This document shows, in pieces, positions 4,211 to 53,389 of a stretch of DNA of 64,000 nt. Both the position numbers and the translations under genes were made by a program. The DNA is taken from assembly GCF_018283645.1 (NCBI RefSeq), contig NZ_JAGSXH010000009.1, positions 1 to 64,000 on the forward strand, in the 5' to 3' direction. The notes beneath the pieces were generated by a model. That model was not told where the DNA came from and made no database searches. It worked only from the letters and a program-made list of their open reading frames with translations. Positions within the stretch are counted from its first letter, which is position 1; every line of letters begins with the position of its first letter. Origin of the DNA: Actinocrinis puniceicyclus. GTDB lineage: Bacteria > Actinomycetota > Actinomycetes > Streptomycetales > Catenulisporaceae.

Positions 4211-5433
4211 GGGGCGCGCTCCGGGCCGGACCGCAGCGGAAGGTAGGGCAGCGCCGCGGTGACCCGGAAGGCGTCGCCGGGCCGGGGGCCTGCGGTGAAG
4301 CGCCCGCCGAGGGCGAGAACGCGCTCGCGCATGCCGACGATGCCGTGCCGACCGGTTGGGACATGGCCGGAGAGCGGGGCGCGCCCATCCGTGGCGCCCG
4401 CGCCGCCCAAATCGTCGATTGTGATGCGCAGTTCGTTTCGATCGTAGACCAGGCCCAGGCGCGCGCGCCGTGCGCTGGAGTGCTTGTGGACGTTGGTGAG
4501 TGACTCCTGGATCACCCGGTACGCGGTGAGGTCCGCCGCAGGTGTCAAGGCGGTGGCGGCTCCGTCGATGCGGGTGTCGACCTCGACGCCGGAGGCGCGC
4601 AGCGAGGCGAGCAGATCCTCGAGCGCGTCGAGCCCGGGTGCGGGGATCGTGGTCGGGGCGACCGGATCGCCCGGCTGTCGCAGCAGGCTGATTGTGTCTC
4701 TCAGCTCGTGCAGCGCTTTGCGGCCGGCCGACTTCACGTGCCCCAGGGCCTCGTGCGCGGTCGCGGCGCCGGGGTCGATCGAACGCTGCGCGACGGCCGA
4801 CTGCACGCTGATGATCGCGAGATGGTGCCCAACACTGTCGTGCAGGTCGCGCGCGATGCGCAGCCGTTCCTCGGCCACTCGGCGCCGTGCGTCCCGCTCG
4901 CGCTCGCGCTCCGCCCGGTCGGCCCGCCGCTCTACCTCGGCGAGGTATGCGCGGCGGTTGCGGGAGGAGTCGCCGGCCGCGATCGCCAATGCCCCCAGCG
5001 CGGTGAACGCCAGGTTCTGCGGGCCGAGTAGCTGCGGCTCGTGTAACGCGTGGACGAGCACGAGAGCGGCCAGCGCGACGCCGCAGACGATCAGACTCGT
5101 CTTGCGTTCGACGAGGTCTGCGACGGTGTAGAGGGCGATCGCCGGGGCGAGCAGGATCAGCATGCTGCCGGATCCGCCGGATTGGGCGAGGAACGCCTCC
5201 GCGGCCGCCGCGCTGACTACGAGGACGGTCAGCGGCCGGTGGCGCCGCGCGGCCAGCACTGCGCAGCCGGCCGCCGCTATCGCGAACGTTTCGGGACCGC
5301 CCCGCGCGGTGGTCTGTGGGCGCCCGGCGAAGGTGGTCAGGGCGATGGCGGCGAACACTGCCAGCGCGATCGTCGCGTCCGCGAGATGTGGATGCCTCCG
5401 CACGGCGCCGCGCAGGTGGCCGGTGATGCTCAT
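4207..5433 (-). CDS. NarL-type sensor histidine kinase (HisKA_3)
   Basis: 408 aa from ATG 5433. Roughly five hydrophobic segments fill residues 15-155, with little extracytoplasmic sequence, as in intramembrane-sensing kinases. A coiled coil rich in Arg/Glu follows (about 160-190), then the HisKA_3 dimerisation helix with phospho-acceptor H198 in RIARDLHDSVGHHLAI. The C-terminal HATPase domain has the N-box in YRVIQESLTNVHKHSS and a G-box near GRHGIVGMRERVLALGG. It probably senses membrane or cell-envelope stress and phosphorylates the downstream regulator. The open frame extends further upstream, but that part is Arg/Pro-rich non-coding-like sequence. Confidence 0.92.
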   Translation of the reverse strand: MSITGHLRGAVRRHPHLADATIALAVFAAIALTTFAGRPQTTARGGPETFAIAAAGCAVLAARRHRPLTVLVVSAAAAEAFLAQSGGSGSMLILLAPAIALYTVADLVERKTSLIVCGVALAALVLVHALHEPQLLGPQNLAFTALGALAIAAGDSSRNRRAYLAEVERRADRAERERERDARRRVAEERLRIARDLHDSVGHHLAIISVQSAVAQRSIDPGAATAHEALGHVKSAGRKALHELRDTISLLRQPGDPVAPTTIPAPGLDALEDLLASLRASGVEVDTRIDGAATALTPAADLTAYRVIQESLTNVHKHSSARRARLGLVYDRNELRITIDDLGGAGATDGRAPLSGHVPTGRHGIVGMRERVLALGGRFTAGPRPGDAFRVTAALPYLPLRSGPERAP

Positions 5434-5490
5434 GCGTTTCACCTTAAGCGCGCATACCGGCTGTGCCGTCATCGCAGTGCGGCAGGCACG

Positions 5491-5538
5491 CCTACCGCGT
5501 GCACGGTAGGCCGACGCGCACATACCGCGGCTGCGGTA
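5491..5538. promoter_or_regulatory. Two related dyads between kinase and ABC exporter
   Basis: CCTACCG-N6-CGGTAGG (5491-5510) and TACCGC-GGCT-GCGGTA (5523-5538) share TACCG/CGGTA arms. Their centres are 30 bp apart, about three helical turns. They lie between the divergent kinase and ABC-transporter genes and are good candidates for response-regulator binding sites controlling the exporter. Confidence 0.45.
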
Positions 5539-5654
5539 CGTCCGATTGCCGTGCGCGGGTGACGACGATCGGTCCGAAGCTCGCGAGGGTGATCCCGGCG
5601 CCCGGAGCCGGGCGCGAGAAGAGAACAAGACAGCCGAGGCGAGGAGAACCCAGG

Positions 5655-6410
5655 ATGAGCGGTGCAATCGCCGTGACCGGTATGACCAAGAGGTACAAGG
5701 CGGTGACCGCGGTCGACGATCTGAGCTTCGTGGTGGAGCCCGGGGTGGTGACCGGATTCCTCGGCCCCAACGGGGCCGGCAAGACCACCACCCTGCGGGT
5801 GATCCTCGGTCTGGTGGCCCCGAGTGCGGGGCGGGCGCTGATCGAGGGGCGCCGCTATGCCGAGTTGGCCCATCCACGGCGCGTGGTCGGTGCGGTACTG
5901 GAGACCGGCGGCTTCCACTCCGGGCGCCGCGGCCGGGACCACCTGCGTATTCTCGCCCGCAGCGGCGGGATCGCAGGCTCCCGCGTCGACGAGGTGCTTG
6001 AGCGCGTCGGCCTGACCGAGAGCGCGCACCGTCGCGTGGGCGGCTACTCCCTGGGCATGCGCCAGCGCCTCGGGCTGGCCGGCGCGCTGCTGGGCGACCC
6101 TGGTGTGCTCGTTCTCGACGAACCCGCCAACGGTCTGGACCCGGCCGGTATGGCGCAACTGCGCGATCTGCTGCGCGGCCTGGCCGGCGAGGGCCGCACC
6201 GTCCTGGTGTCCAGCCATGTGCTGAGCGAGGTGGCGCAGACCGTGGACCGCGTGGTGATCGTCTCCGGTGGCGCGCTGCGCTACGCGGGCACGCTGAAAG
6301 AACTCACCGGCGCGCGGGGAGAGACGCTCGAAGCCGCGTTCCTGCGCCTGACCTCAAACCCGACGACCACGCCACGGGCCGGCGCCGCGACGGCCCGGAC
6401 CCGCGGCTGA
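5655..6410 (+). CDS. ABC-2 exporter ATP-binding protein
   Basis: 251 aa. All nucleotide-binding motifs are present: Walker A GPNGAGKTT, ABC signature YSLGMRQRLGLAGALL, Walker B VLVLDEPANGLDP, and switch His in VLVSSHVLSEV. The subfamily resembles the BcrA/DrrA-type exporters of antibiotics or lipids. Start ATG 5655 follows GGAGAACCCAGG. The permease gene begins 18 bp downstream, so the two form one transcription unit, probably switched on by the divergent two-component system. The family is often used for resistance to envelope-active peptides; the substrate here is unknown. Confidence 0.93.
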   Translation: MSGAIAVTGMTKRYKAVTAVDDLSFVVEPGVVTGFLGPNGAGKTTTLRVILGLVAPSAGRALIEGRRYAELAHPRRVVGAVLETGGFHSGRRGRDHLRILARSGGIAGSRVDEVLERVGLTESAHRRVGGYSLGMRQRLGLAGALLGDPGVLVLDEPANGLDPAGMAQLRDLLRGLAGEGRTVLVSSHVLSEVAQTVDRVVIVSGGALRYAGTLKELTGARGETLEAAFLRLTSNPTTTPRAGAATARTRG

Positions 6411-6427
6411 CACGAGGATCCGAGAAT

Positions 6428-7168
6428 ATGAATACCCTGATCTACACCGAGGTGCTCAAGCTGCGCACGGTGCGCGGCCCTTGGCTGTTGTTGGCCGCCG
6501 CTGCGCTACTGGTGATCGCCGGGATCAGCGGCGCGGTCAACTCGACCAAGGATCCGATCGACCAGAACCTGCAGGCAGTTGCCCTCGCGCACGTCGGTCT
6601 GGGCTCCGTGTTCACCCTCGTCTTCGGAATCCTCGCGGTGGCCGGCGAATACCGGCACAGGACGATCACCGACACCTATCTGAGCACTCCTTCCCGCAGC
6701 CGCGTCGTCGCCGCCAAGCTCGTCGTTTATGCCGTGTTCGGCGTGTTCTGCGGCGCGGTGAGCACGCTCGTGGGGCTCGTCGTCGCGGCGGCGTGGTGGT
6801 CGCAGAAGGGCGCGTCGTTCGCCTGGGGGAGCGCGGGGATGTGGGCGACGATCGGCGGTGGGATCGTATGGAACGCGGCCTTCGCCGCCATCGGCGTGGG
6901 CGTGGGTGCTCTCATCCGGAGCCTGGTCGGCGCGATCACCGTCGCGCTGGCGTGGATCGTGCTGGTGGAGGGCATCGTCGGCCAGTTGGTCGGCGCTCTG
7001 GCCCGATGGCTGCCGTTCAATGCCGGCCAAGCGCTCGGCGTCGCGGCCAAGCCGATGATGTCCCAAGACCTGTTGCCGCGTTGGGGCGGCGGCGTCGTTC
7101 TGGCTGTGTATACGTCTGTCTTCGCCGTCGTGGCACTGACCACGAGCATCCGGCGCGACGTTTCCTGA
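6428..7168 (+). CDS. ABC-2 type permease
   Basis: 246 aa with six predicted membrane helices: the first at about 20-37, then pairs near 55-75, 100-125, 135-160, 165-195, and a last one at 222-240. It has the usual opening of this family (MNTLIYTEVLKLRTVRGPWL). It is the membrane partner of the ATPase just upstream; two half-permeases would assemble with two ATPases. The context (divergent NarL-type two-component system) suggests inducible export or detoxification. It is followed by a terminator-like hairpin shared with the convergent dehydrogenase gene. Confidence 0.88.
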   Translation: MNTLIYTEVLKLRTVRGPWLLLAAAALLVIAGISGAVNSTKDPIDQNLQAVALAHVGLGSVFTLVFGILAVAGEYRHRTITDTYLSTPSRSRVVAAKLVVYAVFGVFCGAVSTLVGLVVAAAWWSQKGASFAWGSAGMWATIGGGIVWNAAFAAIGVGVGALIRSLVGAITVALAWIVLVEGIVGQLVGALARWLPFNAGQALGVAAKPMMSQDLLPRWGGGVVLAVYTSVFAVVALTTSIRRDVS

Positions 7169-24125: not shown

Positions 24126-24489
24126 CGGATCAGGATGACAGCGGGGATCGACTCGTGACGACCTCGGGCCCGCGCGTGTCGAACGGGGACGCGCCTGCGA
24201 CAAAGCCGTCGCAAAGATCATGCCGAGCGACCCTCCGTGACAATCTTCAGGCGGCGCGCCGGTCGCGGCGGTCACACGCAAGGACCGGAGCCGATGCGAG
24301 GGAACGCGACAGGGGGTTGGCTAGTGGGTAGCGGGTCGCGAGCGCGCCGACCGACATGCCCTCGACCCTCGGGCCATGGACCGTACGGGAGAACCACCCT
24401 TACTCACAGACGAAGCTTTCCGGGCATTTCCCTAACGGCGGGTGCTGACTATCGTGACGACTTGGGCAAAAGCTGCAATTGGGGGAAAA
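24126..24489. other. Intergenic region upstream of flavin oxidase and enolase-like gene
   Basis: This 364-bp divergent promoter region carries no convincing gene. One dyad is visible, TGCGAC-N6-GTCGCA (24196-24213), 71 bp before the oxidase start. It could serve either promoter. Confidence 0.4.
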
Positions 24490-25680
24490 ATGGCAGTACG
24501 TATCAAAAGCGTGCACGCTGTGGAGATCATCGACTCCAACGGGCGTCCCGCGCTTGACGTGCGCTTGAGCCTGGTCGGAGGAGCGGCCGGACAGGCGTGC
24601 GTGCCGTTCGGGGCCTGCTGTCCGGTCGAGCAGGCGACAGCGCTGGAGAGCGCGGCGCTCGAACTGGTCGGCGCGTCCTTCGAGGGGCTGGCCGACATCG
24701 ACGGAGCGCTGCGCAAGCTCGCCGAGGACGGGATCCGGCCGCGGCCCAGCCAGCACGTGCTGCGCGGCGTGTCCATCGCCGCGGCCAGGGCGATGGCCAA
24801 CCGGCAGGAGCAGCCGCTGTGGCGGTTCCTGGCGCTGCCCGGAGCCGGGCAAAGGCTGCCGGTGCCGCAGTTCACCGTCGTCAACGGCGGCCACCGGGCG
24901 GGGACCGAACTGGACTTCGAGCAGTTCATGATCGCCCCGGTGGGAGCGCCCAGCATGCGCGCCGCGGTGCACACGGGTGTTGAGCTGCTCGGCAGGCTGC
25001 GCGCGGTGCTGGCCGGTTACTCGCTCGATACCCGGGTGGGCGCGGACGGCGGCTTCGCACCGCAGATCGCCTGGCCGGAGCGCGTTCTCGAGCTGATCAC
25101 GCAGACCATATCGGACGCCGGATACGCCCTCGGCCCGGACGGGGTGACGCTGGCGCTGCGGGTCGCGGCCTCCGGTTTCCGGTACGGCGACGGCTACCAG
25201 GTGGGCGGCGAGTGGCACAGTACCGCGGAGATGATCGACCGCTACGAACAGATGGTCGACGTCTTCCCGCTTTCGAGCATCGAGGACGCCTTGGCGCAGG
25301 ACGACTGGGACGGCTGGGCCGAACTCACCCGCCGCCTCGGCGACCGGGTGCAGCTCGTCGGCGGCGACGTGTTCGCGACCGACCCGGAGTTGATCGCCAC
25401 CGCCGTCGCCCGGCGGGTCGCCAACGCCGCGGTGATCAAGACCGCGCACTTCAGCACGATCACCGAGGCGCTGGAAGCGATGCGCGCCTGCCGGGACGCC
25501 GGCTACGCGCAGGTGGTGGCGCACCGGGGGGAGACCAGTGACGCCTTCGCGGCGGACCTGGCGGTGGCGGCCGGCTGCGGCCGACTGCGAGCCGGGGCAC
25601 CCACCCAGGGCGAACGAGTCGCGAACTACAACCGGCTCATCGAGATCGAGGCCGACGACTGCCTGGCGTATCGAGGCTGA
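24490..25680 (+). CDS. Enolase-like protein with degenerate active site
   Basis: 396 aa, shorter than the usual 425-430. The enolase fold is clear from end to end: LPVPQFTVVNGGHRAGTELD, FEQFMIAPVGAPSMRAAVHTG, GADGGFAP, FPLSSIEDALAQDDWDGW, GERVANYNRLIEIE. Key residues differ from true enolase. The DEGG catalytic pair is A186-D187. The first Mg ligand Asp (in the LDVAASEF motif) is R224. The Mg ligand in GDDLF is G292. The substrate Lys before TGAP is R367. The SGAS Mg-loop reads PFGACC. E265, catalytic K317 and H345-R346 are kept. It is probably not a 2-phosphoglycerate dehydratase; a moonlighting, regulatory or altered-substrate role is inference. ATG 24490 is preceded by GGGGGAAAA. Confidence 0.85.
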   Translation: MAVRIKSVHAVEIIDSNGRPALDVRLSLVGGAAGQACVPFGACCPVEQATALESAALELVGASFEGLADIDGALRKLAEDGIRPRPSQHVLRGVSIAAARAMANRQEQPLWRFLALPGAGQRLPVPQFTVVNGGHRAGTELDFEQFMIAPVGAPSMRAAVHTGVELLGRLRAVLAGYSLDTRVGADGGFAPQIAWPERVLELITQTISDAGYALGPDGVTLALRVAASGFRYGDGYQVGGEWHSTAEMIDRYEQMVDVFPLSSIEDALAQDDWDGWAELTRRLGDRVQLVGGDVFATDPELIATAVARRVANAAVIKTAHFSTITEALEAMRACRDAGYAQVVAHRGETSDAFAADLAVAAGCGRLRAGAPTQGERVANYNRLIEIEADDCLAYRG

Positions 25681-25826: not shown

Positions 25827-26441
25827 TCACGGGATCGTGCGCGGCAGCCTGCCGTCAAGGATCAGTTCGACGAGTTGCTCGACCATCACCGCGTCGACCG
25901 GCAGCTTGCGCACCAGGCTGCGGTAGAAGATCGCGCCGATGAACAGGTCGATGACCGTCTCGATGTCGACGTCTGGCGGCAGCGTCCCGACCGCGGCGGC
26001 CTGGTGCAGGACCTCTCGGGCGGCGTCCCGGCGCGGTCTCAGGAACTGCCGCAGCTGCTCGGCGCCGGTCGCGTCCCGTGACACCTCCGCGGCCAGCGCG
26101 GGCACCGTCGAGCCGACCTGGCCGACGGCGTACGTCTGGACCGCGGACTGAATGGCGGCACGCAGGTCCGTGCGCGGGTCTCCGGTGTGCTCCGGCAGCT
26201 CGACCGGCAGGCCGCGCTCCATCGCCTCTATCACCAGGGCGCTCTTGGAGTTCCACCAGCGGTAGATCGTGGCCTTGCCCACGCCGGCCCGCGAGGCGAC
26301 CCGCTCGATGCTCAGGTCCTGGTAACCGACCTCGCCCAGCAACTGCACCGTGGCGTCGAGGATCGCCTGGTGGGTGCGCGGGTTGCGGGCCCGGCCGGTC
26401 GACGGCGCCGGCGGGTCCGCGGCAACGGTTTCGTTGGACAT
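25827..26441 (-). CDS. TetR-family regulator next to the peptide cassette
   Basis: 204 aa. After a 20-residue tail comes a TetR helix-turn-helix (LSIERVASRAGVGKATIYRW, then WNSKSALVIEAME), and a C-terminal helical domain of the TetR_C type with DIETVIDLFIGAIFYRSLV. It is transcribed away from the three peptide genes. The 242-bp intergenic region contains two palindromes: one before its own start (26502-26514) and one abutting the -35 box of the peptide promoter (26597-26610). It is therefore the probable repressor of the peptide operon and of itself. The inducing ligand is unknown. Confidence 0.9.
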   Translation of the reverse strand: MSNETVAADPPAPSTGRARNPRTHQAILDATVQLLGEVGYQDLSIERVASRAGVGKATIYRWWNSKSALVIEAMERGLPVELPEHTGDPRTDLRAAIQSAVQTYAVGQVGSTVPALAAEVSRDATGAEQLRQFLRPRRDAAREVLHQAAAVGTLPPDVDIETVIDLFIGAIFYRSLVRKLPVDAVMVEQLVELILDGRLPRTIP

Positions 26442-26501
26442 CAGTTCTCAACACTCTGTGACGTGGCTGCTCGGAAGGGCGGTGACGCTCAGGCGGAGCC
26501 T

Positions 26502-26514
26502 AGACGTACCGTCT
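26502..26514. promoter_or_regulatory. Palindrome near tetR promoter
   Basis: AGACG-TAC-CGTCT has perfect 5-bp arms, 61 bp upstream of the TetR start. It may be the autoregulatory copy of the operator at 26597-26610, with which it shares the central ACG-TA-CGT character. Confidence 0.4.
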
Positions 26515-26596
26515 CGTAGTTTCGTATGGAACACCAGAGTACTGGACGGTCGCCGCGAGCGGACCGGGTGACATGGTAAAAATGCCTGAGAAAAAA

Positions 26597-26610
26597 ACGA
26601 TACGTATCGT
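26597..26610. promoter_or_regulatory. Perfect 14-bp palindromic operator of the peptide operon
   Basis: ACGATACGTATCGT is a perfect palindrome ending one base before the TTGACA hexamer of the peptide promoter. It has the size and symmetry of TetR-family operators, and the divergent gene encodes a TetR protein. Confidence 0.65.
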
Positions 26611-26611
26611 C

Positions 26612-26640
26612 TTGACAAGCTTGCCTGGTCGTGGAGTAAT
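26612..26640 (+). promoter_or_regulatory. Sigma-70-type promoter of the peptide operon
   Basis: A consensus -35 box TTGACA (26612-26617) is followed after exactly 17 bp by AGTAAT (26635-26640), which matches TATAAT at four positions including the final TAAT run's key bases. The flanks are AT-rich compared with the rest of the window. Transcription would start about 37 bp before the first peptide ATG, leaving a short leader with a near-perfect Shine-Dalgarno. Confidence 0.6.
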
Positions 26641-26683
26641 GACTCTTGTGAGTCCAACGGTTCCCGTTAAGGAGGTGACTTTC

Positions 26684-26863
26684 ATGGAACTCAAGGAACT
26701 GCGTGAGCAGCCGGTCGAGCTGCTGCCCGGCCGCGAGGCGCTCAACCACTTCAAGTTCGTGTGGGCGAACGTCGAGGCCTACAACAAGGCGATGGCCGTG
26801 AACATGTTCTCCGACCACTCCAGCGCCACCGCAGTAGCGCTCCAGTCCATCTCCATCGGGTGA
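26684..26863 (+). CDS. Candidate precursor peptide 1 (59 aa)
   Basis: The gene has an exceptionally strong AAGGAGGTGA Shine-Dalgarno (26669-26678), 5 nt before ATG 26684, indicating heavy translation. The peptide begins MELKELREQPVELLPGREAL and ends ATAVALQSISIG. It aligns with the next two peptides at LREQ-VEL-P-REAL (leader-like), AYNKAMAVN (middle), SSATA and QSISIG (C-terminus). It has an extra three-residue stretch after the leader (NHFKFVWANVEAYN). There is no signal peptide and no Cys. The pattern of conserved leader and variable C-terminal part, in tandem genes before an RRE-M50 protein, fits a RiPP-type or processed signalling precursor. Its product and activity are unknown. Confidence 0.75.
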   Translation: MELKELREQPVELLPGREALNHFKFVWANVEAYNKAMAVNMFSDHSSATAVALQSISIG

Positions 26864-26916
26864 CCTGCGGTACTGACCGCGACACTCCCGTCCATCGAAG
26901 CCTGAAAAGGAAAAGC

Positions 26917-27087
26917 ATGAACTTCACCGAACTGCGCGAGCAGAGCGTCGAACTGGTCCCCGCCCGCGAGGCGCTCAGCGTCACCATGGCCTGGGTCGAC
27001 GCCTACAACAAGGCGCTCGCGGTCAACCTGTACTCCGACTACTCCGACGCGACCGCGCTGGCCGGTCAGTCCATCACCATCAGCTGA
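26917..27087 (+). CDS. Candidate precursor peptide 2 (56 aa)
   Basis: Begins MNFTELREQSVELVPAREAL, then SVTMAWVDAYNKALAVNLYS, and ends QSITIS. It is most similar to peptide 3 in both sequence and upstream region: the stretch GCCTGAAAAGGAAAAGC directly before the ATG is identical in both genes and includes the AAAAGGA ribosome binding site. It has no Cys. The hydrophobic WVDAYNKALAVN segment could form an amphipathic helix, and the C-terminal beta-branched QSITIS is conserved across all three peptides. Family and product are not recognised. Confidence 0.75.
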   Translation: MNFTELREQSVELVPAREALSVTMAWVDAYNKALAVNLYSDYSDATALAGQSITIS

Positions 27088-27140
27088 CCCGCGGTAACCA
27101 CCGCGGCGCTTCAGCCCATCGACGCCTGAAAAGGAAAAGC

Positions 27141-27311
27141 ATGAACGTCATCGAACTGCGCGAGCAGACCGTTGAGCTCGTCCCCGCCCGCGAGGCGCTC
27201 AGCGTCACCGTGGCCTGGGTCGACGCCTACAACAAGGCGCTGGCGGCCAACCTCGGTAGCTACTGCTCCAGCGCGACCGCGGCCGCGGGCCAGACCATTT
27301 CAATCGGCTAG
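27141..27311 (+). CDS. Candidate precursor peptide 3 (56 aa)
   Basis: Begins MNVIELREQTVELVPAREAL, then SVTVAWVDAYNKALAANLGS, and ends QTISIG. The gene starts exactly 224 bp after peptide gene 2, and the leader regions are nearly identical, so these two arose by tandem duplication. The variable segment GSYCSSATAAAG carries the only Cys of the three peptides. The stop is followed after 10 bp by a 17-bp perfect hairpin that should reduce read-through into the protease gene. Confidence 0.75.
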   Translation: MNVIELREQTVELVPAREALSVTVAWVDAYNKALAANLGSYCSSATAAAGQTISIG

Positions 27312-27321
27312 GCGGTTCAGC

Positions 27322-27359
27322 CGGTGGCGGGGAGCCGGACGCCCGGCTCCCCGCCACCG
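27322..27359 (+). terminator. 17-bp perfect hairpin (attenuator) between peptides and protease
   Basis: CGGTGGCGGGGAGCCGG (27322-27338) and its exact reverse complement (27343-27359) enclose the loop ACGC. It sits between the last peptide stop and the protease start with no T-tract. Such internal hairpins commonly keep precursor mRNA far above processing-gene mRNA in peptide operons and can also stabilise the upstream message. Confidence 0.65.
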
Positions 27360-27384
27360 AGCCGCCCGAGTGCTTGGACCAGTG

Positions 27385-28821
27385 ATGACCGTCGTCGAGC
27401 CCCAGACGCACAATACGACCGGGAACAAGCCGGCGGAACGCGCCGAGACCGTGCCCTATGCCCCGCAGGGGGCCGCACCTGAAACCGAATCCACAGCCGC
27501 CACCGCGGCGCGCGTTCCGCAGCCTGCCGCCGGCACCGAGTTGTTCGGCGAGTATCAGGGCTCCGGCTACGCGGAGCCGCGCTATCTCGTGCGGCGCGCC
27601 GACGGCCAGGTCATCCAGCTCACCGCCCTGCTCAACCTGACGCTGCGCGCGATCGACGGCACCGCTGATCAGAGCACGATCGCGCAGCGGGTGACCGCCG
27701 GCTTCGGCCGCGAGGTCACCGCGGAGAACGTCGCCTACCTCATCGAACACAAGCTCCAGCCGGCCGGCCTCGTCCTGCCCGAGGACGGGGCGGCGACCCC
27801 CCTGCCGCGCACCGACCTGCTGCTCGCGCTGCGCGGACGCTGTACGCTCGTGCGCCCACCCATGGTCCGCTTCCTCGCACGAATGCTGGCCTGGATACAC
27901 CGGCCGCTCATCGTCGCCGCGGTGCTGCTCGGTGTCGTCGTCCTCGACGTATGGCTCTTCGCCGTGCACGGCGCGGCCGGTCCGCTGGTCTCCGTCCTCA
28001 CCAGGCCGACGCTGATGCTCGCCGTGCTCGGCCTCGGCATCGGGTCCATGGTCTTCCACGAGTTCGGACACGCCTCCGCCTGCCACTACTCCGGCGCGCG
28101 ACCAGGACGCATCGGCTGCGGCATCTTCCTGGTCTGGCCCTCGATGTACACGGACGTCACCGACGTGTACCGGGTCGGCCGGGCCGGACGGCTGCGCACC
28201 GACCTCGGCGGCGTCTACTTCAACACAGTCTTCATCCTCGCCCTCGCCGGCTGCTACGCGCTGACCGGCCAGCCCGTGTACCTGGCCGCGATCCTCTTCG
28301 TGCACTTCGAGATCATCGACCAGTTGCTGCCGATCCTGCGCTTCGACGGCTACTTCCTCCTTGCGGACATCGTCGGTGTGCCGGACCTGTTCGGCCGGGT
28401 GGGCCCGATCCTGCGCGACCTGCTGCCCACCCGGCTGCGCCCTCGGAGCAGCGCCGCGCAGCTTCCCACCGCCCTGCGGCGCGGCGCGCGCGTGGGTGCC
28501 ACGACCTGGGTGCTGGTGACGCTGCCGCTGCTCGGCGGCGAAATGGTGTGGATGTTCTGGCACCTGCCGTCCCTCATCCGCACGACGGCGCACTCGATCT
28601 CAGTTTTCGCCCTGGCCGTCTTCCACGACTGCGTCCATCACCTGTGGGCGCAGGCGGGGGTCGACGCCCTGGCGATCGCCCTGCTGGCCATCCCGGTGAT
28701 CGGGCTGAGCTGGCTGTCCTGGCGGATCCTGACCCGGCTGCTGCGCCTGGCCGCCCGCCGGATGTCGCCGCCGCTCGCGCTCGCGCTCGCCGCGGCCCGA
28801 GGCGGCCGGCACCGCCGCTGA
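27385..28821 (+). CDS. RRE-like (PqqD-type) domain fused to M50 site-2-type membrane zinc protease
   Basis: 478 aa from ATG 27385. Residues 1-60 are disordered. Residues about 62-132 resemble PqqD/RRE winged-helix domains that bind leader peptides (RRADGQVIQLTALLNLTLRA, DGTADQSTIAQRVTAGFGRE, VAYLIEHKLQPAGLV). A membrane domain follows, with helices near 172-195 and 208-224 and the zinc motif HEFGH at 225-229. The third metal-ligand region is RFDGYFLLADIVG (Asp 321). Further helices follow near 275-310, 385-405 and 440-460. It belongs to the peptide zinc metalloprotease group (YydH-like), which cleaves peptides in or near the membrane. The fusion would recognise and cut the three upstream peptides. 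Its own Shine-Dalgarno is weak. Confidence 0.85.
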   Translation: MTVVEPQTHNTTGNKPAERAETVPYAPQGAAPETESTAATAARVPQPAAGTELFGEYQGSGYAEPRYLVRRADGQVIQLTALLNLTLRAIDGTADQSTIAQRVTAGFGREVTAENVAYLIEHKLQPAGLVLPEDGAATPLPRTDLLLALRGRCTLVRPPMVRFLARMLAWIHRPLIVAAVLLGVVVLDVWLFAVHGAAGPLVSVLTRPTLMLAVLGLGIGSMVFHEFGHASACHYSGARPGRIGCGIFLVWPSMYTDVTDVYRVGRAGRLRTDLGGVYFNTVFILALAGCYALTGQPVYLAAILFVHFEIIDQLLPILRFDGYFLLADIVGVPDLFGRVGPILRDLLPTRLRPRSSAAQLPTALRRGARVGATTWVLVTLPLLGGEMVWMFWHLPSLIRTTAHSISVFALAVFHDCVHHLWAQAGVDALAIALLAIPVIGLSWLSWRILTRLLRLAARRMSPPLALALAAARGGRHRR

Positions 28822-28917
28822 ACACGGCGCCGGCCACCACCCGCAAGCAGCAACCGAAGACGACTGCCGAGTTCATTTCGCTGACGGCCGAATGACCGCC
28901 AACAGAAGGGAACCACC

Positions 28918-29499
28918 GTGAAATTTCATCCTAAGAGGGCCGCGGCGGTGTTCGCCGCGGTGATCATGGGAGTCAGTGCCCTGGTCACCGGGGGGACCGC
29001 CCAGGCGTCCTCCGCCTCGAACTACGCGTCCAGCCACGCCTCGTACTGGAACCACCACTCGTTCGACGTGGCGTTCCAGGTCCGGCAGATGTTCAGCTCG
29101 TCGGTGAACGCCACCAACGAGGCCGACGCCAACTCGAGGAACTGCACCGGCTGCCACAGCGTCGCGATCGCGTTCCAGATCGTGGCCGACGGCAAGGTGC
29201 CCACCCACGTCTCCGCGCACAACTTCGGTTCCGCGGTGAACGTGAACTGCAGCGACTGCCAGACGCTCGGCATCGCCTACCAGTTCATCGTGGCCAAGCC
29301 GACCGTGCTCAGCTGGTCCGACCAGGCCAAGCTGTGGCGCATCGACGCGCAACTTTGGTCGCTGTACTGGTCCAACGCGCCCGCCAGCCAGATCGCCGGG
29401 CAGGTTTCCGCGCTGGCCGGACAGGTGGCCTACATCCTGGCCCACGCGGGACACGGCTACTGGCCGCTGGTGCACCACTACATCACCTGGCGGCACTGA
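28918..29499 (+). CDS. Exported protein with two NCxxC motifs
   Basis: 193 aa from GTG 28918, preceded by AGAAGGGAACC. The signal peptide is residues 1-30 (MKFHPKRAAAVFAAVIMGVS, cleavage after AQA). The mature part has two imperfect internal repeats: NCTGCHSVAIAFQIVA (C76, C79) and NCSDCQTLGIAYQFIV (C111, C114), each a CxxC followed by a hydrophobic segment ending in Gln. The C-terminal 60 residues are Trp- and His-rich (SWSDQAKLWRIDAQLWSLYW, GYWPLVHHYITWRH). The CxxC pairs may form disulfides or bind metal. I recall similar exported NCxxC proteins next to M50 genes in other actinobacteria, with no assigned function. Its position makes it a partner of the peptide system: target, carrier, immunity factor or redox helper. 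Confidence 0.7.
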   Translation: MKFHPKRAAAVFAAVIMGVSALVTGGTAQASSASNYASSHASYWNHHSFDVAFQVRQMFSSSVNATNEADANSRNCTGCHSVAIAFQIVADGKVPTHVSAHNFGSAVNVNCSDCQTLGIAYQFIVAKPTVLSWSDQAKLWRIDAQLWSLYWSNAPASQIAGQVSALAGQVAYILAHAGHGYWPLVHHYITWRH

Positions 29500-47534: not shown

Positions 47535-47891
47535 GTGCTGACTCTCCTTACGACACTGCCCGCCCACGCCGAGTGGCACACACTGCTACCTGCGGCCAGC
47601 GGTGGGAATATCAATACGATCATCGGAGGGATCGCGCCGGACTGGGGCCCCTTCGGGAAGGTCGGCCAGCAGGCACGGGTGATGATCGAGGTCATCATGG
47701 CGGCGGCGATCCTGCTCTGCCTCGGCATCGCCATCTGGGGCGCGGCCAAGCAACGCATCGGCGCTACCGCTCTGCGCGATTCGTTCAGCGCCGAGCAGGG
47801 CAAGGGTCTGATCGTGGCCGGGCTCACAGGCGTGTTCATCATCGGTTCGCTCGGCACCCTGTTCACCATCGTCTACGGCATGGCGATCTGA
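47535..47891 (+). CDS. Small two-helix membrane protein, VirB2/TrbC-like
   Basis: 118 aa from GTG 47535. A hydrophobic N-terminus (VLTLLTTLPAHAEW) is followed by two clear membrane helices: MIEVIMAAAILLCLGIAIWG and GLIVAGLTGVFIIGSLGTLF. They are joined by a short polar loop (AAKQRIGATALRDSFSAEQG). Size and topology resemble conjugative pilin subunits, and it is first in the operon. The assignment is inference from position and topology. Confidence 0.6.
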   Translation: MLTLLTTLPAHAEWHTLLPAASGGNINTIIGGIAPDWGPFGKVGQQARVMIEVIMAAAILLCLGIAIWGAAKQRIGATALRDSFSAEQGKGLIVAGLTGVFIIGSLGTLFTIVYGMAI

Positions 47892-48097
47892 GTCGTGGAC
47901 GAAGCGGCGGCGCGACGCCCGTCGGCGCGCGCGATGGTGTACACGCGGACCGGCGCGGGCCGCGCAAGCTGTAGCCAGGCGGAAAGCGGGGCAGGGGCCC
48001 AACGGCTGACGCGCGCAGAGTCTCTGGCGTGTAACGCGGCTCAACCGGTCCCGGGACCGGTGAGACTGGTTTCCATATCCACGAGGAGTGAGGCCTG

Positions 48098-48979
48098 ATG
48101 GCCCGCCCCTGGAGCCGAGCCGAACGAGGGTCATACGCGTTGGACACTGCGCAGAGCACGCCCGAAGCGCGCACGCGCGTCAAGTTGCCACCCGACCCGT
48201 ACCGAGACGACGAGCCGAGACCGGGCCGCGCCCGCCGACCGCTGATCCTGCTCGTGGCGCTGGCCGCCCTCGTCACCGTGATCACCATCGTGAACCGCAG
48301 CACCCACCAATCCGGCGGCCCGGCTGCCGCGGGCCAGTCCGCGCCCTCCGCCGGCTCGTCCGACACGAACGCCGCGGCGGGCGCGACCGGCCCGGTGGCC
48401 ACGCCGTTCCAGAACAGCGGCCTGCCCGCGAACACGGCCGACGGCGTGCCGATCGGGTATCCGCACACGGCGAAAGGCGCCGAGTCGGCGGCCGCCAACT
48501 ACGTCGTCGCCTACTCGTCCTCGGAGATGGTGACTCCGAGCGCGCGGCACCGGCTCATCGACGCGATCGCCGACCCGGCCATAGCCTCCAGCCTGCAAAG
48601 CCAACTCGACACCGCCTACACCCAGGTGGCCAGCAGCCTCGGGCTCTCTGCGGACGGCGTCGCGCCGGCCGGGCAGACCTTCGTCCAGCGCAGCGCCCCG
48701 GTCGGGGTCACGCTGGTCAACAGCAGCGGCCAGAGCGCGACCGTCTCGGTGTGGGCCGTCACGATCGCCGGCCTGGCCGGGGCGGGCTCGACCCATCCCG
48801 TCGCGGAGGACTGGTCCACGATCACCGTGACCCTGCACTGGACCGGAGGGGACTGGAAGTGGGTCTCCTTCTCCGCCGCGGACGGCCCGGTGCCGGCCGG
48901 CGGACAGCAGACCGTGTCCGGAAGCAAGGACCTGCAGAAGGCCGTCTCTCAGTTCGGGGGGTTGCGCTATGCCCGGTGA
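48098..48979 (+). CDS. VirB8/TcpC-like secretion component
   Basis: 293 aa from ATG 48098 (GAGGAGTGAGG upstream). A cytoplasmic head of about 45 residues precedes one membrane helix (RRPLILLVALAALVTVITIV), an Ala/Ser/Gly linker, and an extracytoplasmic domain (about 105-285) with NTF2-like alternation (ESAAANYVVAYSSSEMV, STITVTLHWTGGDWKWVSFS). This bitopic layout is that of VirB8 and TcpC scaffold proteins of type IV machines. It overlaps the next gene by 11 bp. Confidence 0.68.
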   Translation: MARPWSRAERGSYALDTAQSTPEARTRVKLPPDPYRDDEPRPGRARRPLILLVALAALVTVITIVNRSTHQSGGPAAAGQSAPSAGSSDTNAAAGATGPVATPFQNSGLPANTADGVPIGYPHTAKGAESAAANYVVAYSSSEMVTPSARHRLIDAIADPAIASSLQSQLDTAYTQVASSLGLSADGVAPAGQTFVQRSAPVGVTLVNSSGQSATVSVWAVTIAGLAGAGSTHPVAEDWSTITVTLHWTGGDWKWVSFSAADGPVPAGGQQTVSGSKDLQKAVSQFGGLRYAR

Positions 48980-50303
48980 CACGCTGATCCGCGCCGCCGG
49001 CGACGCCTGCGCGTTGCTGCCCGGTTCGCTCAATCACGCCTGCGAGAACACGCGCAAGCTGGTAGGCGACTCAGGCAGCGGCGCCGGGCCCAACGGCAGC
49101 GCCGGCGGCGGCGCCTCGACCGCGTCGCTGCTGTCCGATCCGGTCGGGGCGATCGCGCACGACTGCGCCCAGGCGGCCTCTTCGGTCATCAAGGCCGTGT
49201 CCTCCGTGGTCGACGGGGCGACCACGGTGGACTTCACCAACTCCGGTTTCCTGACCCAGTACGCGATCGTGTTCGCCGCCTCCGCGATCCTGACCGTGGT
49301 GCTCTGGCTGCTCGCGGTGATCAAGCGGGCGGTGCGCGGCGAGTCCATCGTGACCGCGCTGTCCGAGGCCACCGGCTTCCTGTGGCTCGCGGTCGGCGCT
49401 TCCGCGTTCACGCCGGTGATCCTCTACGGAATGGTGCGTGTGACCGACTCGGTGACCAGCGCCATCGGCTCGGGCACGGCGAGGGATACGAACAACTTCC
49501 TCACCTCGTTCGCGAACACGATCGACCCACCGAACGGGCAGAGCGCGAACCTCGGCGGCGGCCCGATCCTGCTGATCTTCGTCTCGCTGATCGCCATGAT
49601 CGCCGCGGCGGTGCTGTGGGTCGAGTTGCTGATCCGGGCCGCGATGCTGTACGTCGGCGCGGCGCTCGCGGCGACCGTCTACGCGGGCCTGGTGGACAAG
49701 TCGCTCTGGCACCACATCAGGCGCTGGGCCGGCATGATGATCGCGGTGGACCTGGCGAAACCGGTGGTCGTCATCGTGCTGGGGCTGGCCACCGCCATCT
49801 CCGGAGGCAACACCGGGCAGGGCTCCTTCGGCTCGGTGCTCTCCGGCCTGGCCATCATGCTGCTGTCGATCTTCGCCTCCGGCCTGATCTTCCGCTTCGT
49901 GCCGAGCTTCGGCGACGACATGCTGGCCATCAACGGCGCCCGCTCCGCCGACGCGCCGGCCGAGGCCGCCGCGGGCTCGATGGACGGGCCGGCCTCGCGG
50001 ATGAGGCAGGGCATCGCGGCTCACGCCGGCCGCAGCGGCAGCCCGATCGGAGCCAACCCCATGGCCGGACCGGCGGTCGCCGCGCTGGGCATGTCGGCGG
50101 GCCTTGCGGCCCACGGGGCACGCACCGCCGTGCGGCTGACGACCACGCGTAACCCAGGCAACGGCGGACAGCCTTCGGTGCCGCCGCCCATGCAGCCGCC
50201 CGCCGCTCTCCCGCGCGAGGGAGTGCCCGGACGCGCTGCCGATGCGGTTCGCGGGGCGCAGGGGCGCGGCGCGCCTGACGCCGGACGCGGAGGAACGGCG
50301 TGA
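48969..50303 (+). CDS. TrbL/VirB6-like polytopic membrane protein
   Basis: 444 aa. A soluble N-terminal part with two Cys (about 10-30) and a Gly/Ser stretch is followed by six or so membrane helices (about 95-330: YAIVFAASAILTVVLWLLAV, LWLAVGASAFTPVILYGMVR, GPILLIFVSLIAMIAAAVLW, LLIRAAMLYVGAALAATVYA). The C-terminal tail is disordered and Pro/Ala/Gly-rich. TrbL/VirB6 proteins form the inner-membrane channel in type IV secretion. The stop overlaps the next start by 4 bp. Confidence 0.75.
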   Translation: MPGDTLIRAAGDACALLPGSLNHACENTRKLVGDSGSGAGPNGSAGGGASTASLLSDPVGAIAHDCAQAASSVIKAVSSVVDGATTVDFTNSGFLTQYAIVFAASAILTVVLWLLAVIKRAVRGESIVTALSEATGFLWLAVGASAFTPVILYGMVRVTDSVTSAIGSGTARDTNNFLTSFANTIDPPNGQSANLGGGPILLIFVSLIAMIAAAVLWVELLIRAAMLYVGAALAATVYAGLVDKSLWHHIRRWAGMMIAVDLAKPVVVIVLGLATAISGGNTGQGSFGSVLSGLAIMLLSIFASGLIFRFVPSFGDDMLAINGARSADAPAEAAAGSMDGPASRMRQGIAAHAGRSGSPIGANPMAGPAVAALGMSAGLAAHGARTAVRLTTTRNPGNGGQPSVPPPMQPPAALPREGVPGRAADAVRGAQGRGAPDAGRGGTA

Positions 50304-51823
50304 CGGCAGAGGGTTACGAGCGCCGCCGCTCGTTCCTGATCGGCAAGGCCAAGCCGAACGCGATCGTCGGGCGCAACCGGGAGACCGGCGAACTGGCCGT
50401 GTTGGTGGTCGCGTGCGCACTGGCGATGATCGCGGCCTTCGTACTCCCCACCCTCTTCCTCAAGATTCTGATGATCATCGGACTGCCGGCGGCCGGCGCG
50501 GCGGTGATCTTCCTGCCGTACCGCAAGCGCACGCTGTACCGATGGTTCGAGATCGACCGCAGTTATCGGCGGCTGTTGCGCTCGGGCCAGGCCCGCTACG
50601 CCTCGGCCGCCGTGGAGGCCGGTACCCGGCTCGGCGGCCGCCCGCTGCCGGTGGCCGGCCCGCCCGGGATCGGCCGCGTGCGCTGGCTGACCGCCAACTT
50701 CGGGCCGGACAAACTCGCGGTCCTGATGCACCTGGACCGCGGCACGGTCACCTGCACGCTGGAGATCGAAGGGCCGGGCGTCGGCTCCCGGGACGCCGAG
50801 GACCAGGAGGCCCTCGTCGACCGGTTCGGCACCCTGCTGCGGCACGTGGCCAACGGAGACGGCTTCGTGACCCGGCTTCAGATGCTCGCCCGCACCCTGC
50901 CTGCCGACCCCGACGCGCACGCCAAGGACGTGCTCCGGCGCGGTGATCCCGAGGCGGCGCAATGGCTGCGGGATTCTTACGACCATCTGGCGTCGATGGT
51001 GTCGACCTCCAGCGAGCAGCACCGTGCGTATCTGACCGCTTCGATGCCTTACACGCGTGAACTGGCCACCGAAGCGCGGGTCATGGCCGGAGGCGCGGAC
51101 GCGGACCACGGTCTATGCGTCATCATGGTGCGTGAACTGACCGACATCTGCGCACGGCTCGCGGACGCCGATATCAAGGTCCGCCGACCGTTGGACGTGG
51201 CCGCACTGGCCTCGCTCATCCACTCCATGTACGACCCCGAACACCCGATCGACCACTTCGAGGCGATGGCGGAGCGCGACGCCTGGCCGGCCGAGTTCGA
51301 CGGCTCCGGGCCGCTGTTCCTGCGAGCCAAGACCCGCGAGTCGGCCACCGGCGAGCCGTGGTGCCACGCCACCGCGTGGATCCGCGAGTGGCCGCTCACC
51401 CCGGTCTCGGTGAACTTCCTCGCCCCGCTGCTGGTGCACACCCCGGACGTGATCCGTACCGTCGCCGTCACCATGGACCTGGAACCGACCGAGGTGGCGA
51501 TCGAGCGGATGCTGACCGAGAAGGTGAACGTGGACGCCGAGGACCGCCGCCAGGCCAAGCTCGGCCGGATCGACGACCCGCGTGAACGGGCCCACTCCTC
51601 CCGGGTCGACCTGCGCGGCGAGGACCTGGCGGCGGGCGCCGCTGGCGTCAACCTGGTCGGCTACATCACCGTCTCCTCGCGTTCGCCGGAGGCGCTGTCC
51701 CGGGACAAGCGCACCATCCGCGCGTCCGCGGGCAAGTCCTTCCTGAAGCTGGAATGGTGCGATCGGGAACACCACCGCGCCTTTGTCAACACCCTGCCAT
51801 TCGCGACCGGCGTGCGGAGGTAG
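50300..51823 (+). CDS. SCO6880-family protein (PrgI-like membrane part, VirB4-N-like domain)
   Basis: 507 aa. Two membrane helices near residues 32-70 (LAVLVVACALAMIAAFVLPT) are followed by a large soluble domain. That domain resembles the N-terminal, non-ATPase part of VirB4, which is encoded here as a separate gene. The family is known to me as SCO6880 in actinobacteria and accompanies stand-alone VirB4-like ATPases. No Walker motif is present. It probably docks the ATPase to the membrane complex. Confidence 0.78.
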   Translation: MTAEGYERRRSFLIGKAKPNAIVGRNRETGELAVLVVACALAMIAAFVLPTLFLKILMIIGLPAAGAAVIFLPYRKRTLYRWFEIDRSYRRLLRSGQARYASAAVEAGTRLGGRPLPVAGPPGIGRVRWLTANFGPDKLAVLMHLDRGTVTCTLEIEGPGVGSRDAEDQEALVDRFGTLLRHVANGDGFVTRLQMLARTLPADPDAHAKDVLRRGDPEAAQWLRDSYDHLASMVSTSSEQHRAYLTASMPYTRELATEARVMAGGADADHGLCVIMVRELTDICARLADADIKVRRPLDVAALASLIHSMYDPEHPIDHFEAMAERDAWPAEFDGSGPLFLRAKTRESATGEPWCHATAWIREWPLTPVSVNFLAPLLVHTPDVIRTVAVTMDLEPTEVAIERMLTEKVNVDAEDRRQAKLGRIDDPRERAHSSRVDLRGEDLAAGAAGVNLVGYITVSSRSPEALSRDKRTIRASAGKSFLKLEWCDREHHRAFVNTLPFATGVRR

Positions 51824-51826
51824 CCG

Positions 51827-53389
51827 ATGGCCCGCGGAAGCCTGACCGACCTGCTCGCCGACGCCTTCACCACGGTGCTCTTCGGCAAGAAGGACACCAC
51901 CCGGCTGCCGGTGCGCACCTCGACCAACCAGGCCGAGGCGATCTACCTGCCGACCGCCGCGCCCGGCCTCGGCGACTCCGGAGTGATCATCGGACGCGAG
52001 GTGTACAGCGGCAAGGGCTACATCTACGACCCGTTCCAGCTCTACGGCCAGCAGTTGCCAGCCCCCCACTGGCTGGTGCTCGGCGAGTCCGGCAACGGCA
52101 AGTCCTCGCTGGAGAAGACGTACGTGCTGCGCCAGCTGCGGTTCAAGGACCGTCAGGTGGTCGTGCTCGACGCGCAGGGCGAGGACGGGGTCGGCGAGTG
52201 GAACCGGATAGCCGAGGCGGTGGGCGTCACCCCGATCCGGCTCGATCCGCATCACCGCGGCGGCGCGGGCATCCGGCTCAACCCGCTCGACCCGGCGATC
52301 ACGCTCACCGGCCAGCTCGCCCTGCTGCGCACGATCATCGAGGTCGCGCTCGGGCATCCGCTCGACGAGAGGTCCGGTTACGCGCTCAAGGCCGCACACG
52401 CGACGGTACGCGCTGACTCGCTGCGCGCCGGTGTGCAGCCGATCCTGCACCACGTCGTCGAGGCGTTGCGCGAGCCGAAGCCGGCCGCGGCCGAGGAGAT
52501 GAACGTAGGGATCGACGAGGTGCGCGACTGGGGCCTGGACGTGGCTCTGGTGCTCGACCGGCTCGTGGACGGCGACCTGGCCGGCATGTTCGACGGCCCG
52601 ACCACGGCGGGGATCGACCTGGACTCGCCGCTGATCGTCTTCGACCTGTCCACGATCGACCGCAACTCGATCGCGATGCCGATCCTGATGGCGATCGTGG
52701 GGGTCTGGCTGGAGCACACCTGGATCAAGCCGGACCGCAAGAAGCGCATCTTCCTGGTGGAGGAGGCGTGGCACATCATCAACTCCCCCTCGGTGGCGCA
52801 GCTGTTCCAGCGGCTGCTGAAGTTCGGCCGCCGGCTCGGCCTCTCCTTCGTCGCGGTCGTGCACCACCTGTCCGACGTGGTCGACGGGGCGGCGGCCAAG
52901 GAGGCCGCGGCGATCCTGAAGATGGCCTCGACCCGCACCATCTACATGCAGAAGTCCGACGAGGCGCGCGCCACCGGACGAGTGCTCGGCCTGCCCCGGT
53001 GGGCGGTGGAGATCATCCCGACGCTCTCGCCCGGCATCGCGGTCTGGGACGTGAACGGCGATGTGCAGGTGGTCAAGCACATCGTCACGGAGATCGAGCG
53101 ACCGCTGGTCTACACGGACCGCGCGATGACCGAGTCCTCGGACGAGGAGGAGGCCGGGGCGGACGCGCTGGACGACCTGCCGCCGGCGTTCGCGAACGCC
53201 GAGTCCGAGTCCGAGCCGGATCGGCCGCAACTTCCGCCGGGCGCCCGCGCGAACGCCAGGGCGCTGCCGCCGGGAACCGGAAAGCACTCCGGCCGGCCGG
53301 AGGCCGAGGACCCGGACCTGACCGCGATCGCCGCGGCGGTCTTCGGGCCGCGAGCGAGCAATCCGAGCCATACCCGCCGCGGGGCCTGA
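51827..53389 (+). CDS. VirB4-like secretion ATPase
   Basis: 520 aa. The Walker A motif is GESGNGKSS at 86-94. Walker B-like sequence is KKRIFLVEEAWHIINSPSVA, followed by the family's LLKFGRRLGLSFVAVVHHLS and STRTIYMQKSDEARAT segments. The C-terminal 60 residues are acidic, Pro-rich and probably disordered. The gene begins 3 bp after the SCO6880-like stop. VirB4 ATPases power substrate and pilus-subunit movement in type IV systems. No VirD4-type coupling protein or relaxase gene is in the window. Confidence 0.87.
   Translation: MARGSLTDLLADAFTTVLFGKKDTTRLPVRTSTNQAEAIYLPTAAPGLGDSGVIIGREVYSGKGYIYDPFQLYGQQLPAPHWLVLGESGNGKSSLEKTYVLRQLRFKDRQVVVLDAQGEDGVGEWNRIAEAVGVTPIRLDPHHRGGAGIRLNPLDPAITLTGQLALLRTIIEVALGHPLDERSGYALKAAHATVRADSLRAGVQPILHHVVEALREPKPAAAEEMNVGIDEVRDWGLDVALVLDRLVDGDLAGMFDGPTTAGIDLDSPLIVFDLSTIDRNSIAMPILMAIVGVWLEHTWIKPDRKKRIFLVEEAWHIINSPSVAQLFQRLLKFGRRLGLSFVAVVHHLSDVVDGAAAKEAAAILKMASTRTIYMQKSDEARATGRVLGLPRWAVEIIPTLSPGIAVWDVNGDVQVVKHIVTEIERPLVYTDRAMTESSDEEEAGADALDDLPPAFANAESESEPDRPQLPPGARANARALPPGTGKHSGRPEAEDPDLTAIAAAVFGPRASNPSHTRRGA

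Follow-up and report, generated by a model that had tools for sequence, protein, structure and literature searches.

Daptide gene clusters each hold ~2.3 precursor genes beside a membrane protease in which a recognition element of ribosomally synthesized and post-translationally modified peptides (the RiPP recognition element, RRE) precedes a site-2 protease (S2P) domain, and their leaders carry the motif ELExMEAP (PMC10036551). A related M50 protease, EpeP, is thought both to cleave and to export its peptide (PMC10885120). Here we analyse a window of 64,000 nucleotides from Actinocrinis puniceicyclus (contig NZ_JAGSXH010000009.1, positions 1 to 64,000), in which three short tandem genes for leader-bearing peptides are followed by an RRE-S2P protease and by an exported CxxC protein that we call NCC, with a TetR-family gene in divergent orientation. 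The presence and position of all these genes were confirmed on the DNA of the window, and the layout is not a product of chance since it recurs in >100 other loci. We find that the system is made of two modules: the leader goes with the protease and one kind of core goes with NCC.

The precursor peptides of 59, 56 and 56 residues are encoded on the forward strand at 26684-26863, 26917-27087 and 27141-27311 (gene calls and translations). A preliminary description made from the DNA alone had proposed that they are related and have a common leader-like start, middle and end, and we recovered the corresponding motifs, ELREQxVEL-[LV]-P-x-REAL, AYNKA-x-A-x-N and Q-[ST]-I-[ST]-I, in all three. Gene 1 is preceded by a full, uninterrupted ribosome-binding site, AAGGAGGTGA (26669-26678), while genes 2 and 3 have a 17-base upstream stretch, GCCTGAAAAGGAAAAGC, in common and differ from each other with dN 0.16 and dS 0.33. 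Instead of a signal peptide, each peptide has an RRE leader. Across the family this leader reads E-L-x(n)-L-P-x-[RK] with E next, and in an alignment of 27 diverse precursors the one fully conserved column is Pro15, with Leu6, Leu14 and Arg17 each reaching at least 90%. By a pattern search of the DNA, the leader is confined in this genome to the three window genes.

The protease (478 residues, 27385-28821, forward strand; identified by family profile matches and a structural model) was assigned the start ATG at 27385, the mechanical open reading frame from 27172 being too long. Its AlphaFold model (pLDDT 86.7) contains an RRE domain of three strands followed by three helices (residues 43-134, 27511-27786), whose best structural matches by VIA-align are the leader-bound RREs of lasso-peptide systems, 5v1v (TbiB1 with leader; Z 8.7, 84 residues, 2.9 Å) and 6jx3 (FusB1 with leader; Z 8.7), with further matches to 4v1v, 4bs9 and 5why (LynD, TruD and CteB-type RREs). 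In sequence searches the RRE signal was weak, PqqD (3g2b) appearing at E=0.24, below chance-looking matches, and PF05402 in 2/16 family members at E=0.024, and the identity of the domain therefore comes from the model and the structural alignment. The earlier suggestion that the protease N-terminus resembles a PqqD-like RRE is thus upheld by fold. The S2P domain (residues 151-445, 27835-28719) aligns with the archaeal protease 3b4r (Z 7.8, 168 aligned residues) and includes the HEFGH zinc motif (residues 225-229, 28057-28071) and a second motif, RFDGY (residues 319-323); H225, E226, H229, D321, G322 and Y323 are invariant in an alignment of 60 relatives. The resemblance of the modelled RRE to RRE-leader complexes suggests that it binds its cognate leader, and the invariant catalytic motifs point to an S2P domain that would cleave this leader off.

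The processing half of the system is a variant of the daptide-type RRE-S2P. As in DapP/MpaP (NF041824; PMC10036551), the RRE is fused N-terminally to the S2P domain, several short precursors with a conserved leader accompany the protease, and the proteases are homologous, the window protein scoring 91 bits against daptide_HExxH (NF041824), far under the family cut-off of 300 bits. Unlike in daptides, however, the window leader is ELREQxVEL[LV]PxREAL rather than ELExMEAP, there is no invariant C-terminal Thr (the C-terminal residues in the window are G, S and G), the modification enzymes DapB, DapC, DapD and DapM are absent, no oxidative decarboxylase, aminotransferase or methyltransferase family recurs within 5 kb in relatives, and no ABC transporter is linked. 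The epipeptide proteases EpeP/YydH/LiaK (NF058609; PMC10885120) are likewise M50-type membrane proteases that mature a peptide, but the match (44 bits, cut-off 225) spans the catalytic core only and the window locus is without an adjacent radical-SAM epimerase.

Homology to the daptide protease, the pairing of multiple precursors with an RRE-S2P and the presence of several short paralogous peptides per locus would all suit a daptide-like multi-peptide bacteriocin, with leader removal by the RRE-S2P, cores that act on competitors as toxins, and an immunity or accessory function for NCC. We nevertheless consider a RiPP-type antibacterial of this kind unlikely. No tailoring enzyme, transporter or immunity-like gene is conserved across the loci, whereas daptide clusters have dapBCDM and dapT1T2; the repeat proteins of 200-300 residues and the Gly- and His-rich low-complexity cores that occur in relatives (see below) would be odd for bacteriocins; and the presence of the core repeat in NCC is not something that immunity would require. 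More generally, no family of tailoring enzymes or transporters is shared between taxon groups in the 5 kb around the protease, in agreement with the earlier remark that enzymes of the known RiPP classes are absent nearby, though a tailoring enzyme encoded elsewhere may act on the cores. An ABC exporter was considered as a conserved part and rejected, an ABC ATPase lying within 5 kb in 13/107 loci and in 10 of these on the other strand.

The relatives came from a search of 296 genomes sampled from the phylum and from a single scan of genome contigs, of which 80 relatives were kept, and their genes were called by a custom script, so that gene borders are approximate. The protease family is encoded in 23/296 of the sampled genomes, and the contig scan gave at least 541 encoded relatives. 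Among 107 M50 loci, nearly all from Actinomycetota, a leader gene, defined as a same-strand gene within 3.5 kb of M50 with the pattern in its first 75 residues, was found in 102/107, versus 13/327 distant small background genes. (A first version of the pattern, which missed forms such as 'LPDKEVA', had given 91/109.) As to the remaining loci, a leader peptide was identified by eye in L038 and L046 (in both on the other strand) and in L058; L039 has none nearby, but its genome, G222, has three leader peptides and NCC on another contig (L184); and the contig of L122 begins inside the protease gene. None of the 107 loci was shown to lack leader peptides and, because all of them are tied to such peptides, the prospect that M50 homologues would consistently occur without them did not materialize. 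The system is also present in non-filamentous Arthrobacter and in Acidimicrobiia. One phage contig, L147 (IMG/VR UViG_3300036785_001048, 4530-6500), encodes an RRE-S2P and two leader peptides immediately following the gene for a major head protein (phrog_2522, E=8.5e-94); the viral and phage collections yielded no second example.

What follows the leader varies: it precedes at least five unlike core classes, namely beta-repeat, two-Cys, Gly-rich, His-rich and short aliphatic cores. Beta-repeat cores occur in this window, in Streptomyces, in Acidimicrobiia and in Thermoleophilia, and two-repeat beta proteins of 200-300 residues in Arthrobacter, Nocardioides and Mycobacterium; two-Cys cores were seen in Actinomadura, Amycolatopsis and some Streptomyces, Gly-rich cores in Pseudonocardiales, and short aliphatic cores in L050, L058 and L061. 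The genes at position -1 of L088 and L090 encode the leader followed by His-rich chains (HHVPVHHAPEHH... and GGDHRGDRGG..., respectively), possibly metal-binding; beta cores and NCC are the rule in the rest of their clade. The leader stays with the protease irrespective of the core behind it. That a single leader type and a single protease family serve so many core classes, with NCC accompanying a single class, could also describe a general leader-dependent sorting route that places diverse cargo at or across the membrane, the role of the cargo varying by lineage and NCC belonging to one cargo type, and the peptides and NCC of genome G222, which lie away from the protease, would fit this as well. 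The restriction of the leader pattern to the three window genes, however, leaves no dispersed cargo in this genome, and the proposal overlaps with the one that we favour below, from which it differs mainly in emphasis; we judge it somewhat improbable.

The core of each window peptide is one beta-arch repeat: an N-A-A-N strand, an S-x-x-S turn and an A-A-A-Q-I-I strand. The repeats, which conform to a strict 21-residue pattern, are NKAMAVNMFSDHSSATAVALQ in peptide 1 (residues 34-54, 26783-26845), NKALAVNLYSDYSDATALAGQ in peptide 2 (residues 31-51, 27007-27069) and NKALAANLGSYCSSATAAAGQ in peptide 3 (residues 31-51, 27231-27293), all on the forward strand. Conserved positions of the beta cores, counted from the initial N, are +2 S/A, +4 A, +6 N, +9 S, +12 S/A, +14 A, +16 S/A, +18 A and +20 Q; selection of the core set partly imposed the N, S, A and Q positions, and +4, +6 and +18 were not imposed.

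NCC (193 residues, 28918-29499, forward strand, start GTG) was characterized by a hydrophobic segment and a structural model. The segment, residues 8-24, resembles an export signal, and the protein contains the motifs RNCTGC and VNCSDC. The two NCxxC motifs of the preliminary description are thus present in the window protein, but in the family the two Cys pairs are conserved and the Asn before them is not. Comparison with the cores shows that NCC carries two copies of the 21-residue core repeat in which both turn serines have been changed to cysteines. The first copy, NEADANSRNCTGCHSVAIAFQ (residues 67-87, 29116-29178, forward strand), has conserved N67, A69, A71, C76, C79, A83 and Q87, with a spacing identical to that of the cores (C76 at +9, C79 at +12, A83 at +16 and Q87 at +20 from N67). 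The second, NFGSAVNVNCSDCQTLGIAYQ (residues 102-122, 29221-29283, forward strand), has conserved N102 followed by A106 (+4), N108 (+6), C111 (+9), C114 (+12), T116 (+14), A118 (+16), A120 (+18) and Q122 (+20).

The strict pattern is matched by 54/64 NCC and by 61 leader peptides, versus 0/1,113 other genes and 0/1,300 shuffled NCC sequences; a loose version is matched by 60/64 NCC and 101 leader proteins, 0/1,300 shuffles and 2/1,113 other genes, and both of these latter matches turned out to be leader peptides too, which the filter had overlooked or a contig end had truncated. Similarly, a hidden Markov model (HMM) built from the peptide cores alone finds, outside the peptides, a leaderless basic relative, then NCC and nothing else (E up to 0.01). 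An HMM built from the NCC repeats gave a best E of 0.21 against the peptides, little above shuffles, the reverse direction and the spaced pattern being far clearer. In the NCC model (pLDDT 82.3), six strands, each 11-13 residues long, line up regularly with the Cys pairs at turns, and two C-terminal helices follow, and the conservation of core and NCC at i, i+2 and i+4 fits strands with one face inward. NCC was also considered as a cytochrome or heme-binding CxxCH protein and rejected: the Pfam matches (E 0.047 and 0.5) were below the cut-off, and a His follows only the first CxxC and is not required in the family.

Two further proteins accompany the system in relatives. The leaderless basic relative is a small, signal-less protein with the core motif (NAVIAANV...SSxQRIVQR) encoded near peptide genes in several taxon groups (L040, L041, L043, L046, L095, L097 and L104, and also L042, L093 and L184); perhaps it keeps the cores from assembling too early, as their partner in the cytoplasm. 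The second, an exported lipoprotein-like protein of ~260 residues without a Pfam family, follows NCC in loci of Acidimicrobiia and Thermoleophilia (L038, L042, L043, L092, L095, L109 and L114). Together with the protease, the leader peptides and NCC, these are the families that recur near the protease across taxon groups.

NCC accompanies the beta-repeat core. Among 94 loci with enough flank, 53 have both a beta core and NCC, 33 have neither, 3 have the core only and 5 have NCC only, and these five contain two-repeat beta proteins that the core HMM scored too low (beta cores were classed by HMM because a regular expression had misfiled such two-repeat proteins). Across genomes, 14/16 with NCC also have the M50 protease (Fisher p=2.8e-16, ancestry not corrected); the exceptions are G065, with NCC at a contig edge, and G104, which has a degraded-looking or shortened NCC and no protease in view. 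Of the co-occurrence originally expected for peptides, M50 protein and NCC, the part concerning the M50 protein and the peptides stands (107/107 tied), while NCC is not universal. NCC appears twice on the protease tree, in groups that are separate from each other, and a clade of 24 loci has it fused to the C-terminus of the M50 protein, an arrangement that places core-like repeats beside the protease.

On the basis of these findings, we propose leader-guided maturation of self-assembling surface peptides, a reading for which we consider the evidence evenly balanced. The peptides would be made with the N-terminal leader E-L-x(n)-L-P-x-[RK]-E, whose conservation would reflect its role in recognition; capture of this leader would fall to the RRE domain, on the cytoplasmic side of the protease, and the S2P domain would cut it off at or in the membrane; the beta-arch core would reach the outside via the protease itself, for which EpeP would offer a precedent, or via an unlinked exporter, no linked exporter being conserved; and the cores would stack outside with NCC, which has the repeat in common with them, as a Cys-clamped nucleator, cap or anchor. 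Of the roles named in the preliminary description (antibiotic, signal or envelope peptide), the evidence would accordingly lean towards an envelope or self-assembling peptide.

Several observations weigh against this proposal. The alignment of NCC repeats to cores by hhalign reached only 48% probability, Foldseek gave no match for NCC in the PDB, and structural alignment of NCC with 8enq, a fibril of E. coli CsgA, gave a weak match (Z 2.9, rmsd 8.1 Å). Strong as the link between core and NCC is by counts, core type and NCC change together only 2-4 independent times on the M50 tree, too few for a test by independent contrasts, so that it may reflect ancestry. Moreover, the two-Cys, Gly-rich, His-rich and aliphatic core classes occur without NCC, and assembly is thus, on this evidence, not the theme of the whole family.

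Among known assemblies, curli offer a comparison, restricted to how such a system might work: as in the window system, CsgA and CsgB have short strand-turn-strand repeats with inward Asn, Gln and Ala/Ser ladders, and the repeat is shared with a second protein, a possible nucleator. They differ from the window system in that there is no sequence family match, in the Cys pair at the turn, in the processing of a leader by an RRE-S2P and in export (no CsgG-like gene turned up, none having been specifically sought). Chaplins and rodlins of Streptomyces are small, abundant, exported and self-assembling actinobacterial peptides, as is proposed for the window peptides, but they have classical signal peptides where the window peptides have an RRE leader, and the present system extends to non-filamentous Arthrobacter and to Acidimicrobiia.

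The divergent TetR-family gene (204 residues, 25827-26441, reverse strand; PF00440 E=1.6e-14, PF16859 E=5.4e-27) and the peptide genes flank a perfect 14-bp palindrome, ACGATACGTATCGT (26597-26610), a candidate operator of which this is the sole exact copy within the window. It lies directly 5' of a TTGACA box (26612-26617) that is followed, after a 17-base spacer, by AGTAAT (26635-26640), as read by eye from the sequence; a consensus promoter scan reported none. The palindrome is probably the site through which TetR represses the operon in this genome. The regulator is not among the families recurring in relatives and was discarded as a conserved part, so that of the divergent TetR switch first described the gene itself remains, as a local feature, while Streptomyces relatives have a divergent XRE-type gene instead. 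In these Streptomyces loci (L067-L086 and others), the XRE-type regulator lies upstream of the peptides in 25 loci, and an 86-residue protein, VLFVHGGPATAVVRG..., likewise recurs upstream in 25 loci.

Release of signal peptides by S2P proteases occurs elsewhere among bacteria and, with a divergent regulator both here and in the Streptomyces relatives, the locus might be thought to make a peptide signal, released by the S2P and sensed by neighbouring cells, with NCC or TetR taking part in sensing. No conserved receptor or importer lies near the protease in relatives, however, the full-strength ribosome-binding site of gene 1 suggests an abundant product, and the cores are highly patterned, as for a structure, and exist in long two-repeat versions; we regard a signalling role as quite unlikely.

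The window neighbours of the operon are genes for TetR, an enolase-like protein, an FAD/BBE oxidase, a WYL regulator and an MFS protein. The enolase-like protein (24442-25680; PF00113 E=1.4e-76, with a weaker N-domain) is possibly an enolase paralogue. Further away, consecutive genes whose products look membrane-bound or ATPase-like (47535-53389) resemble, by eye, a conjugation or type IV secretion-like block.

The system is apparently undescribed, as had been surmised: no Pfam or NCBIfam model matched the peptides or NCC, and no paper describing it was found. In the annotated records that we examined, the protease, peptides and NCC are each named 'hypothetical protein', as are all listed genes surrounding a relative on a Streptomyces plasmid. 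In the literature covered, which takes in few subscription journals, no description was found of leader peptides paired with an exported protein that has their core repeat, or of the reuse of a leader for unlike cargo. Many soil actinobacteria carry this operon. Tentatively, and with more reserve than confidence, we suggest that it is a surface-polymer machinery in which a leader-reading membrane protease hands over beta-arch peptides that would stack on an exported, disulfide-clamped protein of the same repeat, and whose leader-protease half actinobacteria may have reused for unrelated low-complexity cargo. If so, the RRE-S2P pair would serve generally, beyond the antibiotic RiPP pathways, in the addressing and release of small proteins, actinobacteria would own a polymer system that is neither chaplin nor curli, and the leader motif would make the cargo of each genome predictable.

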